From positions 1 through 40,057 of the forward strand of contig JAFQJD010000013.1 of NCBI GenBank assembly GCA_017415105.1: a stretch of DNA of 40,057 nucleotides. The letters run 5' to 3'. The position numbers and the translations under genes are program-made. The notes under the pieces were generated by a model. That model had not been told where the DNA came from and did not search any database. It was given only the letters and a program-made list of their open reading frames with translations. Source of the DNA: Clostridia bacterium (lineage in GTDB: Bacteria > Bacillota > Clostridia > UBA1381). Shown one piece after another: positions 14,101-24,641 of the stretch; the stretch's first letter is position 1; every line of letters begins with the position of its first letter.

Positions 14101-15443
14101 AAAAGGTTGAGGATTATACAATAAACCGTGTTCAGTTCACTGAAAAGGAGAAGAAAAACCACACTATTATATTCCCACAGATGAGCCCGACGCATTTCGG
14201 ACTGTTTGAGGCGGTATTCCGTGCGAATGGATATAATGCAGTTGTTCTTGAGCACGCAACACCGGAGGACGTTGAGGCAGGACTGAAAAGCGTAAATAAC
14301 GATGCATGCTATCCGTCAATTCTTGTTACAGGTCAGCTTGTTAACGCATTTATATCCGGCAGATGTGATCCGGATAACACATCGGTTATGATAACACAGA
14401 CCGGTGGCGGTTGCCGTGCTACAAACTATATCGCATTTTTACGTAAGGCTCTTAAGGAAGCAGGATATTCGCAAGTACCTGTAATATCACTTAACATTTC
14501 GGGGCTTGAAGGTAATCCGGGATTTAAGATAACGCCGAAGCTTGTCGATGGTGTTCTTAAGGCGTGCACGTGGGGAGATTTGCTCCTTTCGGTGTCGCAG
14601 CGAATACGTCCATATGAAATCAACGAGGGCGAAACCAACGAGGTATATAACCGTTGGCAGGCAAGACTGCATAACGATATCGTAAACAATAATGCAAAAA
14701 ATCTCAAATTAAAACGTGTTATAGAGGAAATAATCGCTGATTTTGATGCAATTCCGATAGACGAAACGGTAAAGAAACCTAAAGTCGGAGTAGTGGGTGA
14801 AATACTTGTAAAATTCCATCCTGATGCAAATAACGATGTTGTTGGAGTAATAGAATCTGAGGGTGGCGAGGCGGTTATGCCGGGACTTGCTGACTTCTTC
14901 TTGTATTGTCTTTATAACAATAACTTTAAGCACGATAATCTCGGTACAAAAGCATCAACCGCACGTCTTTGCAATCTTGCAATATGGGGAGTTGAAAGCT
15001 ACAGAAAGCATGCTAAAAAGCTTATGTCGGAAAATCCGAAATTCGCATCCCGTGCACCGGGGCACATCGCAGAAATTGCCGAGGAGGCTAAAAAGGTACT
15101 TCAGCTCGGTCACTGTACCGGTGAGGGTTGGTTCTTAACGGGTGAGATGATAGAGCTTATAAATTCGGGTGTTCCCAATATCGTATGTGTACAGCCGTTT
15201 GCGTGTCTGCCAAACCACGTAACCGGTAAGGGTATGATAAAGGAGTTACGCCGTCTGTATCCGCAGTCAAATGTCGTTGCAATCGACTATGACCCGGGTG
15301 CAAGTGAGGTTAATCAGCTCAACCGTATCAAGCTTATGATGGCAGTTGCGTTTGAGAATATCAAAAAGGAAGAAATGTTTGATACAATTCTGCATAAAAA
15401 ACGACGCACAGAGCTTAAGGCACCTGAAAAGCAAGAGGTATAA
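11136..15443 (+). CDS. giant acyl-CoA dehydratase activase / DUF2229 protein with two ASKHA domains
   Basis: The protein has 1435 residues. Two BadF/HgdC-type ATPase domains are fused: [16 protein letters not shown] at the N-terminus and [15 protein letters not shown] near residue 320. Each has an iron-sulphur cysteine site, [11 protein letters not shown] near 124 and [11 protein letters not shown] near 443. A DUF2229 region (about 655-870) and a region resembling 2-hydroxyacyl-CoA dehydratase subunits (about 980-1410) follow. Known short relatives use ATP to pass an electron to 2-hydroxyacyl-CoA dehydratases; the substrate of the giant fusions is not settled. It starts with TTG at 11136, 8 nt after AAGGAGGT. 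It stands alone, following the anchored protein gene by 44 nt. Confidence 0.88.
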
Positions 15444-15449
15444 AAGGAT

Positions 15450-15478
15450 ACAAGCCTGACCGTTACGGTCAGGCTTGT
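15450..15478. terminator. strong hairpin after the activase gene
   Basis: A perfect 13-bp stem (15450-15462 with 15466-15478) with a 3-nt loop lies 6 nt after the stop. No T run follows on the plus strand. On the minus strand a moderately T-rich stretch follows, so it may also act as a back-up terminator for the RNA transcribed from 15680. Confidence 0.65.
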
Positions 15479-15521
15479 ATGGGTTAAGTTGCGTGGTTGC
15501 TCGCGCTTCGAGCAGTGCATT
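15479..15521. other. non-coding spacer with a small hairpin
   Basis: No reading frame is credible here. A 6-bp stem, TGCTCG (15498-15503) with CGAGCA (15509-15514), is the only structure I see. It lies between the activase terminator and the terminator of the minus-strand RNA. Confidence 0.4.
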
Positions 15522-15680
15522 AAAAAAGTGCATCAGCACGGGCCGATGCACGAAAAATGCATTGCCCTTTTGATACCACTCAAACTGAACAACACAAACA
15601 GTGCTCTCCATATGGGCATGCATTTTTGCCAAAATAAATAGAGAGACTGTTTTGTCTATATATTCAGTTCGAGTGGTACC
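15522..15680 (-). ncRNA. candidate structured small RNA of about 156 nt, family unknown
   Basis: A perfect minus-strand promoter is followed by a long hairpin, then an intrinsic terminator. The first stem pairs 15663-15680 with 15572-15589 over 18 bp. A second, slightly bulged stem pairs 15641-15655 with 15594-15608. A short apical stem (15627-15630 with 15615-15618) closes the structure. The terminator stem is 15542-15551 with 15528-15537, followed by six U at 15527-15522. Each A-C mismatch in these stems on the plus strand is a G-U pair on the minus strand, which argues that the minus strand is the functional RNA. It has no credible ORF. The long imperfect hairpin recalls 6S RNA, but it is short and I could not match a family. 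Confidence 0.72.
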
Positions 15681-15683
15681 CAC

Positions 15684-15712
15684 ATTATACCACATATTAT
15701 CTCAATTGTCAA
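15684..15712 (-). promoter_or_regulatory. consensus promoter of the candidate small RNA
   Basis: On the minus strand perfect TTGACA (15712-15707) and TATAAT (15689-15684) are spaced by 17 nt. The predicted start at about 15677 falls within the first bases of the long stem. Confidence 0.8.
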
Positions 15713-15734
15713 ATAATTATTTTTTCAAAAACTC

Positions 15735-15763
15735 TTGACAATTAAATTATGGTGTGGTATAGT
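15735..15763 (+). promoter_or_regulatory. promoter of the trpB operon
   Basis: TTGACA (15735-15740), 17 nt, TATAGT (15758-15763). It lies 22 nt from the -35 box of the opposite RNA promoter. Confidence 0.8.
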
Positions 15764-15784
15764 ATATTCAACTAAAAACCATTG

Positions 15785-16028
15785 AAGCAGAAAAAAATCA
15801 GACACGGACTTTAAGAGCGAGCGGATTACGGTGTGAGTTCCGCAAAGGACACCTGAATAATATGGACTGCTGAGGGCGGTGTTAAATGCACCGACGGCTG
15901 ATTCACGTTAAGAGTCGGAGATATAGAGGTATCTCGCAGAGGGGCAGTCAAATGCCTGAAACAAGGTGGCACCACGGATATATGTATATTCGTCCTTGAC
16001 AGAAGTTTTACTGTCAGGGATTTTTTTA
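15785..16028 (+). promoter_or_regulatory. T-box leader, predicted tryptophan-specific
   Basis: The conserved T-box AAGGTGGCACCACGG is at 15963-15977. The intrinsic terminator pairs 15993-16002 with 16011-16020 and has a seven-T tail. The candidate specifier codon TGG at 15863-15865 is followed by A. This placement equals that of TTC-A in the Phe T-box upstream of pheS (19733-19736), and Trp fits the downstream trpB. Uncharged tRNA-Trp should stabilise the antiterminator and let transcription reach trpB. Confidence 0.88.
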
Positions 16029-16041
16029 TGAGGTGATACAG

Positions 16042-16083
16042 ATGTTATTAACAAAACGATGGCGTAGCAATAATATAGACTAA
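16042..16083 (+). CDS. Trp-containing leader peptide behind the T-box
   Basis: A 13-codon frame encodes MLLTKRWRSNNID, with one tryptophan codon (16060-16062). It is preceded by GAGGTGAT, an excellent ribosome site at proper distance. It lies after the T-box terminator and 34 nt before trpB. The combination suggests a second regulatory layer sensing tryptophan during translation, or coupling of trpB translation. There is no direct proof of translation. Confidence 0.6.
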   Translation: MLLTKRWRSNNID

Positions 16084-16117
16084 TAAGCAAATTATAAATA
16101 AATGGAGGAAATAAAAA

Positions 16118-17335
16118 ATGGAGTATAATGGAATAAATTTTGATACATATTTTAAAAACTATCCGGACGAAAACGGATTTTTCGGCAAATACGGCGGTGC
16201 GTATATCACTGAGGATTTGAAAAAGGCAATGGAGGAGATTACAGAAGCATATTTCACAATCTGTAAATCTTCAAAGTTTATAAGCGAACTTCGCAGAATA
16301 CGCAGAGATTTTCAGGGCAGACCGACGCCTATTTCACATCTTGAGCGTTTGTCAGAGTCGCTTGGCAATGTTCAGCTTTATGTTAAACGTGAGGACTTAA
16401 ACCATACAGGTGCACATAAGCTTAATCACTGCATGGGTGAGGCACTTCTTGCAAAGTATATGGGCAAGAAAAAGGTAATTGCAGAAACAGGTGCAGGTCA
16501 GCACGGTGTTGCATTGGCGACAGCTGCTGCATATTTCGGTCTTGAATGTGATATTTATATGGGTACTGTTGATATTGCAAAGCAGGCTCCCAACGTCGCA
16601 AGAATGAAGATACTCGGTGCAAATGTAGTTGAGGTAAAAGAAGGTCTGCAGACACTTAAAGAAGCGGTAGATGCTGCATTTGCGGCATATGCCCGTGACT
16701 ATAAGGACAGTATCTACTGTATCGGTTCAGTGCTTGGTCCGCATCCGTTCCCGATGATGGTAAGAGATTTCCAGAGCGTTGTAGGAATTGAGGCTCGTGA
16801 GCAGTTTATGGATATGACGGGTGAACTACCTGACGCTGTTGTTGCGTGCGTTGGCGGCGGTTCAAATGCGATGGGTATGTTCTCAGGCTTCTTGAATGAC
16901 CCTGTTGATATTTACGGTGTTGAACCCTTGGGACGCGGTGAAAAGCTTGGTGACCATGCGGCAAGCCTTAAGTACGGAACAGAGGGCATTATGCACGGCT
17001 TTAACAGTATTATGCTTAAAGACGAAAATGGTGAGCCGGCACCGGTTTACTCGGTTGCAAGCGGTCTTGACTATCCATCATCAGGTCCGGAGCACGCATT
17101 TTTGCACGATCTGGGCAGAGTTAAATATGATGTTGTATCAGACGATGAAACAATTGATGCATTCTTTACTTTATCACGTCTTGAGGGAATTATTCCGGCA
17201 ATTGAGAGCTCGCACGCAGTTGCGTATGCAATGAAGCTTGCAAAGGAAATGGGCAAGGGCTCAATTCTTATAAACCTTTCGGGCAGAGGCGACAAGGATA
17301 TGGACTACATTATAGAAAAATACGGTATAAGATAA
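16118..17335 (+). CDS. trpB: tryptophan synthase beta chain, without an adjacent alpha chain
   Basis: The protein has 405 residues, the normal TrpB1 length. The PLP lysine is Lys101 in [12 protein letters not shown], the catalytic glutamate is Glu123 in AETGAGQHG, and the phosphate loop GGGSNAMG is near residue 247. TrpB condenses indole with serine to make tryptophan. No trpA or other trp gene is near, so it may salvage indole, which is common in gut communities, or partner with a TrpA encoded elsewhere. GGAGG precedes the ATG. The gene is under the Trp T-box and leader ORF, and an AEC transporter follows 23 nt downstream. Confidence 0.95.
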
Positions 17336-19623: not shown

Positions 19624-19639
19624 ATATCCAATTGAATAA

Positions 19640-19892
19640 AAGACTGTGAAAAGACAAAGTAGGTAATAATACACCAGAAGAGAGTAACGGTTATTGAGCT
19701 GTGAGCCGTTGCGGCAAGGTTATTACTGAAATTTCATCTTGGAGTCGCACAGGTTAAATCCAAAGAGGAGAGTAGCTTGTGACGGGTTACGCCGTTATAC
19801 GTCAAATGAGTGCCGGTTTATGCCGGAAAACGGGTGGTACCGCGGAGAATGTCAAGCTTCGTCCCAATAGGGACGGGGCTTTTATTATTTTC
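19640..19892 (+). promoter_or_regulatory. T-box leader, phenylalanine-specific
   Basis: The conserved T-box AACGGGTGGTACCGCGG is at 19829-19845. The terminator stem 19856-19865 with 19870-19879 is followed by a T-rich tail. The specifier TTC at 19733-19735 is followed by A, matching Phe and the downstream pheST. Low charged tRNA-Phe should raise synthetase expression. Confidence 0.93.
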
Positions 19893-24463: not shown

Positions 24464-24483
24464 TATTATATAATTAAATAATT

Positions 24484-24623
24484 CTTCGGGGTAGTGTGAA
24501 AATCACAACCGACGGTGATTGAACAATTGTTCATAAGTCCGTGAGCCTTTTGGGGTTGATTTGGTGCAAATCCAAAACCGACGGTAAGCATAGAAAATAT
24601 GCAAAGTCCGGATGGGAGAAGAA
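24484..24623 (+). promoter_or_regulatory. FMN riboswitch (RFN element)
   Basis: The hallmark segments are all present: CTTCGGGG at the start, two ACCGACGGT copies, AAGTCCGTGAGCC, GATTTGGTGCAAATCCAAAA and AGTCCGGATGGGAGAAG at the end. Bound FMN should turn off the riboflavin operon that follows. Confidence 0.97.
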
Positions 24624-24641
24624 ACAGGTTTTTGTTTTCGT

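Follow-up and report, generated by a model that had tools for sequence, protein, structure and literature searches.

The stretch of DNA analysed here (the window; 40,057 nucleotides of contig JAFQJD010000013.1 from a Clostridia bacterium) contains on the minus strand one member of a large multicopy family of structured RNAs of the Clostridia that falls outside the known families. We consider it reasonably probable that this family of about 160-nt RNAs is new and consists of pseudoknot-gated intrinsic terminators, of which the copy in the window is a stand-alone one. Comparison of the copies shows a unit with a promoter at a fixed distance in most copies, a long hairpin, a pseudoknot between two strands (S2a and S2b) and an intrinsic terminator (T1) placed directly after S2b.

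All features of the window copy are on the minus strand. The promoter (15684-15712) has the -35 hexamer TTGACA at 15707-15712, a 17-nt spacer and TATAAT at 15684-15689, the latter within the extended -10 sequence TGTGGTATAAT at 15684-15694. The fold gives a hairpin in two parts: an outer stem, formed by S1a (15663-15680) and S1b (15572-15589) and also supported by covariation in relatives, and an inner stem with its 5' strand at 15641-15656 and its 3' strand at 15593-15609. Between the stems, on the 5' side, lies an A/U-rich stretch of conserved columns (15658-15662), which reads AAUA in relatives and which we propose as a hinge. The apical loop contains a U-rich segment (15629-15640), matching a U run before S2a across the family, and then S2a, AAAAAUGCAUGCCC, at 15614-15627, which pairs with S2b, GGGCAAUGCAUUUUU, at 15553-15567. 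S2b is followed by the T1 stem-loop (15528-15551, from the fold and covariation) and its U6 tract (15522-15527). Behind T1 come a tail, AAUGCACUGCUC, at 15510-15521, predicted to pair with S2b across T1 when transcription reads through, a 3' box of the kind carried by many stand-alone copies, GCAACCACGCAAC, at 15488-15500, identified by alignment of four copies from the same genome, and a second hairpin, T2, at 15450-15478 (ACAAGCCUGACC..GGUCAGGCUUGU), identified by its exact stem pattern beside four own-genome copies. T2 is followed by a convergent gene, and the copy is not in the position of a gene leader; it is of the stand-alone type.

A preliminary description of this locus had reported the promoter, the long hairpin and the terminator with six U, and reading the sequence places all of these where it did. 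Likewise, the three plus-strand A-C mismatches from which it argued for a minus-strand RNA (15582/15670, 15573/15679, 15535/15544) are present and become G-U pairs on the minus strand. The selection for pairing that it suspected, and for which it proposed an alignment of relatives as a check, is supported by the covariation described below. Absent from it were the pseudoknot and the extension of the unit past T1 to T2. The minus strand of 15500-15700 folds with -83.9 kcal/mol as compared to -49.6 +/- 4.1 kcal/mol in 200 dinucleotide shuffles (z -8.3), none of which was as good. A minus-strand reading frame of 142 amino acids (15267-15695) overlaps the RNA; since the relatives are conserved by structure, this frame is probably accidental.

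Several other elements were observed nearby. An inverted repeat, TTGTCAA..TTGACAA, at 15706-15741 overlaps the -35 hexamer of the RNA, recurs in two of the own-genome copies and is a possible operator. A T-box leader on the plus strand (15773-16000; 77.9 bits, under the Rfam cut-off of 93) precedes a gene at 16118, which we take from its sequence to be tryptophan synthase beta-like. The promoters of this T-box and of the RNA point away from each other, and TGTGGTATA is present in both. The window also contains, both above cut-offs and on the plus strand, a second T-box (19637-19869), followed by a gene that is presumably phenylalanyl-tRNA synthetase alpha-like, and an FMN riboswitch (24478-24627).

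To survey relatives, we ran blastn with the window RNA on 61 genomes. One full-length relative (86%) was found within the genus, in genome G015 and beside the same T-box, and a nearly full-length one (69%) in genome G047, along with many partial matches. Of 30 places written out, 24 were accepted as members and 19 of these were aligned, the five omitted being divergent or long. With a covariance model that we built, the RNA was detected in 75 of the 95 genomes sampled from the order (E <= 0.01), at up to 25 copies per genome, and in 77 of 291 genomes of the class, representing 49 of 181 genera (E <= 1e-4). Copy numbers at the class level are lower bounds because no more than 9 candidates in each genome were scored. 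In a sample of 299 genomes from the phylum (E <= 1e-6) the sole positive was the window's own genome. Seven copies were counted there at E <= 1.3e-6; relaxing the threshold to E <= 0.05 gave nine matches, the last of which overlaps another copy on the opposite strand. Where the preliminary description had seen one isolated RNA, there is one of seven copies.

An exact pattern search of genome contigs yielded 92 stretches, 80 of which were taken as loci, and the covariance model confirmed 79 of the 80. The confirmed loci are labelled Clostridia, Oscillospiraceae, Ruminococcaceae, Ruminococcus, Monoglobus or Bacillota; the only archaeal locus among the 80 failed the confirmation. Judging from record titles, many of the named matches originate in animal-gut samples. 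No match was found to plasmids and phages by blastn with the window copy, or to viral contigs with three exact patterns, searches that diverged copies could escape. In two families of the order, a copy is located directly behind a gene that we take to be alcohol dehydrogenase AdhE-like (L089 3935-4093, L095 4788-5198), in differing orientations, and at another locus a c-di-GMP-I riboswitch (L283 31-134, minus strand) is less than 1 kb from a leader copy.

No Rfam 15 family reached its gathering score on the RNA itself, whether in the window, at 20 loci of relatives or at 16 class-level loci, in agreement with the earlier designation of the RNA as unassigned. Matches of the window RNA to miRNA families were weak and far under the cut-offs, and in this region the T-box model (RF00230) matched only the plus-strand neighbour at 15773-16000. 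The RNA was not recognised in word searches of PMC8040213, PMC2864571, PMC11109978, PMC8632094 and PMC6429828. That the family has not been described is a statement about Rfam and the literature searched, exclusive of supplementary lists such as the 3161 candidates of PMC8040213.

The anatomy is supported by covariation of the outer stem, the S2a:S2b pseudoknot and the terminator in the 19 aligned relatives. Counting these helices and excluding the inner stem, 95.5% of the cells were paired as compared to 87.4% in shuffled alignments and 34-49% in controls in which the strands were slid, and double changes occurred in 19 of 35 pairs, as compared to 9.3 after shuffling. S2 was examined separately in 91 copies found in the class but not in the order, which were aligned by a model without the S2 helix. 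Here, 94.0% of the cells pair, versus 90.8% in shuffles (0/500) and 39-69% in slid versions, with 62 double-change cells versus 23.5 (0/500), 8 pairs with double changes versus 5.1 (3/500) and 18 further pair types versus 15.8 (40/500). The S2a strand in the loop, AAAAAUGCAUGCUC, pairs with the S2b strand, GAGCnAUGCAUUUUU.

The stems could be parsed in 168 of 175 distinct copies, with the inter-stem loop picked as the most 5'-heavy one, and measured 15.4 +/- 2.7 bp (outer) and 19.0 +/- 3.0 bp (inner), about 34 bp in total, with the consensus AAUA between them. We dropped the idea that equal stem lengths are a sign of folding back, as the two lengths showed no positive correlation (r -0.33). 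The linker between the hairpin and S2b is mostly 5-9 nt and most often 7 nt long. A straight hairpin of about 34 bp is too long to be spanned by such a linker, so that the pseudoknot needs a sharp bend, for which the AAUA stretch is the proposed site, or S2 is intermolecular; a dimer would produce the same covariation. A run of at least four U within 26 nt before S2a is present in 173 of the 175 copies, as compared to 60% in shuffles, and might allow a U.A-U triple helix.

The 175 distinct copies derive from 185 rows, namely 99 of 103 hits of one model search (the four weakest omitted) and 86 of 91 hits of the class-level search (the five weakest omitted). The promoter motif TRTGNTANNNT was found in 140 of the 185 rows, starting 13-14 nt before the RNA in 138, and 115 of the 140 also have a -35 element with at least 4 of 6 matches at 16-18 nt. 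In most copies the promoter belongs to the unit.

T1 follows directly after S2b and its 5' strand resembles S2a, so that S2b is able to pair with either. For the window copy, the calculated energies are -19.2 kcal/mol for S2, -14.0 kcal/mol for the antiterminator hairpin formed by S2b and the T1 5' strand, and -15.4 kcal/mol for T1; a terminator and an antiterminator that exclude each other are present here as pairing potential. To quantify coevolution of S2b with the T1 5' strand, we compared the pairing energies within copies with those obtained when strands were permuted among copies. The diverged set started from 65 of 71 model hits and four own-genome paralogues. Of these 69, two dropped out because they had no U4 run and two because they were cut wrongly at contig ends; the remaining 65 include a few that are visibly mis-parsed (e.g. 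L346, L351, L300, L319). In this set the mean for own strands was -7.99 kcal/mol as compared to -6.09 +/- 0.23 kcal/mol for permuted strands (minimum of 2000 permutations, -6.91), whereas the control pairing of S2b with the T1 3' strand was weaker than permuted (-4.89 versus -5.40). After thinning of 240 copies to 89 dissimilar ones, z was -6.9 for S2b with the T1 5' strand, as compared to +1.5 for S2b with the T1 3' strand and -0.3 for S2a with the T1 5' strand; S2a with the T1 3' strand gave -3.8, as expected if the T1 5' strand resembles S2a. Shuffles and permutations leave the relatedness of the copies in place, and thinning merely reduces it.

In the conserved set the second pairing is only suggested: antiterminator pairing was 88.5% versus 84.6% in shuffles (0/500), with double changes in 5 pairs versus 4.5 (263/500), while a slide by 2 still gave 65-75% and the own and swapped energies were just -7.41 and -6.62. 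On visual inspection, the four diverged own-genome paralogues seem to preserve both pairings in altered sequence (6-10 bp), with scripted antiterminator energies of only -4.3 to -8.1 kcal/mol. In the antiterminator-energy tests of the conserved, diverged and thinned sets, the S2a strand was selected for pairing best with the S2b in the same copy, so that the S2 score is inflated in these tests; the test of 91 copies, which is column-based, is free of this bias. Taken together, covariation, coevolution in the diverged copies and energies argue that S2b has two mutually exclusive partners, S2a in the pseudoknot and the T1 5' strand in the antiterminator.

We scored a copy as a leader if a start codon with a motif resembling a ribosome-binding site was located 10-45 nt behind T1 and opened a reading frame of at least 40 amino acids, a rule that was coded slightly differently in two sets and has a background of about 6%. 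Leaders by this rule are 77 of the 175 distinct copies, while the other 98, the window copy included, have no such gene start. At the class level a gene start follows T1 in 43 of 86 copies, in 34 of the 43 at a distance of 15-23 nt, as compared to 225 of 4000 randomly drawn positions and 126 of 1923 T6 runs. Among leader proteins of at least 150 amino acids, 36 of 47 look secreted or membrane-bound versus 102 of 472 other frames at the same loci; the signal-peptide rule is a crude script, the proteins include mutual relatives and the comparison frames start at the first methionine.

The genes behind the copies encode secreted repeat proteins, lipoproteins, and small, zinc-ribbon or weakly MazE-like proteins. 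Ten of the proteins (some as the first 80 residues only) share no Pfam family; one passes the zinc-ribbon cut-off and another that of the copper-amine-oxidase N-terminal domain, and one each is weakly MazE-like and weakly HTH-like. Small proteins of about 60-83 amino acids, belonging to two families (MNIKVELLKNYI.. and ..GIVLTPGNMGKDC..), are repeatedly encoded directly behind the RNA in different genomes (L208, L229, L232, L327; and L231, L242, L248, L152), and one member of each had no Pfam family above cut-off. Tandem copies before one gene also occur, each with its own promoter and terminator; at L217, L237, L247 and L281 a second copy is followed by the gene, and at L233, L256, L270 and L276 visual inspection shows, behind T1, the promoter and 5' strand of another copy.

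The 3' box, in variants selected after inspection of these tails, is present in 41 of 96 stand-alone copies versus 2 of 77 leader copies, and 2 of the 41 boxes are the 5' strand of the next tandem copy. A second hairpin has a similar distribution (40 of 96 versus 2 of 77). The exact stem pattern of T2 occurs four times in the genome, always at a distance of about 50 nt to a copy, and from promoter to T2 the four own-genome copies are 40-85% identical, as compared to 13-42% in the flanks. Two ideas about the box were abandoned. If leader copies and their genes formed a repeat-flanked mobile cassette, the box should recur behind the genes, and a search there found it generally absent; pairing with the S1b of the same copy is not supported, because in the four own-genome copies the box hardly varies and the stems do.

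We suggest the following scheme. When the pseudoknot forms, S2b would be occupied, T1 would fold and transcription would stop; when S2a is kept off S2b, the latter would take the 5' strand of T1 as an antiterminator and the polymerase would read on. In leader copies, read-through would enter the gene, often one for a secreted protein. In stand-alone copies it would enter the 3' box and T2, and as these come next, the likely products are an RNA of about 156 nt and, on read-through, one of about 230 nt, which probably act in trans or as sponges. Since S2a and S2b are common to the paralogues, the S2 strands of a stand-alone RNA could also be available to leader RNAs; that the stand-alone RNAs are trans-acting regulators of the leader copies, opening or closing many terminators at once, is a speculative extension to which we assign a low probability. 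The energy of the antiterminator does not differ between leader and stand-alone copies (p 0.35); a stronger antiterminator in leaders was not found. S2, in turn, is stronger in stand-alone copies (-15.4 versus -14.2 in leaders, p 6e-5), which the switch leaves unexplained, as a copy without a gene would need no switch.

These same observations bear on other explanations. The foremost is a class of ligand-binding riboswitches, possible though clearly behind the gated terminator in our judgement, in which the aptamer would consist of the hairpin with its pseudoknot, perhaps including a U.A-U triple helix, and the stand-alone copies would be orphan sensors. The conserved letters (AAUA, the nearly universal U run, AAAAAUGCAU and UUUUUC), the terminator platform and the tandem copies with separate promoters would all suit a sensor; against it, the genes behind the copies have no evident metabolic theme in common, many of the conserved letters sit in helices and no ligand suggests itself. 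Somewhat less likely again is that every copy serves first of all as a small RNA acting in trans or as a protein sponge, stabilised by the pseudoknot and with T1 as a plain 3' end; the genes behind would then owe their expression to passive read-through or to starts elsewhere. Such a role would fit the 98 copies without a gene start just behind T1, the conserved promoter, the 25 copies in a single genome, the letters of S2a and S2b, which are more conserved than most stem letters, and the stronger S2 of stand-alone copies. Against it stand the start codons and ribosome sites 10-45 nt past T1 in 77 copies, at 15-23 nt in 34 of 43 at the class level and far above the controls; moreover, a plain small RNA would have no need for the coevolution that diverged copies show between S2b and the T1 5' strand.

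Two further readings carry little weight. A DNA-level repeat of the MITE or REP type, with inverted repeats that mimic RNA structure, might be suspected from the dispersal of the copies, from the drop in identity outside the unit in the four own-genome copies and from a T2 stem pattern found solely beside copies of the RNA. We regard it as improbable, since outside T2 the own-genome copies are only 40-71% alike, a strong divergence where recent, near-identical dispersed copies would be expected of such elements, and since compensatory changes are seen across the family, the promoter, U run and terminator keep fixed distances and the G015 copy is located at the same place beside the T-box. A 6S-like role through imitation of an open promoter, 6S-like action being what the preliminary description had thought conceivable, is very hard to uphold: the long interrupted duplex speaks for it, but the genome has a 6S RNA elsewhere (C15:9593-9791; 51.7 bits versus a cut-off of 46.4), the RNA discussed here is multicopy, and in the covariance-model test RF00013 had no match at 15400-16120 up to E 10.

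Given its distribution, the RNA would be a common regulatory RNA of the Clostridia that has no Rfam family. It would tie secreted and surface proteins, which are important for meeting host and diet, to an RNA switch. Should stand-alone copies also act on the leaders, an RNA-only network would set which surface proteins a cell makes. The predicted switch has just three strands, which makes it directly testable.

Among known systems, the preQ1, fluoride and ZTP riboswitches attenuate transcription and contain a pseudoknot. The family resembles them in that a pseudoknot is tied to an intrinsic terminator in an mRNA leader position, and differs in having no known ligand, in that over half of its copies have no gene just behind them, in carrying its own promoter at a conserved place and in that S2b has two apparently coevolving partners. 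T-box leaders (RF00230) likewise choose between a terminator and an antiterminator, and one of them lies divergently beside the window copy, but cmscan reports no T-box on the window RNA itself. With 6S RNA (RF00013) it shares a long interrupted hairpin and a similar length, while 6S RNA has a separate gene in the same genome and a model that does not match the window RNA. Gut-1 RNA (RF01706) is similar in occurring in gut bacteria without an assigned function, and in PMC2864571 it is given as human gut only; it differs in sequence (UGAAAU-linked hairpins) and has a separate position. Gut-1 matches within 600 nt of two copies (L205 1741-1817, above cut-off; L208 3364-3432, below it) proved to be separate RNAs. 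Finally, LhrC of Listeria is described in PMC4132741 as a family of small RNAs with several copies per genome; the family of the window shares this presence of several copies in one genome, and differs in having no Rfam match and in that many of its members look like mRNA leaders.
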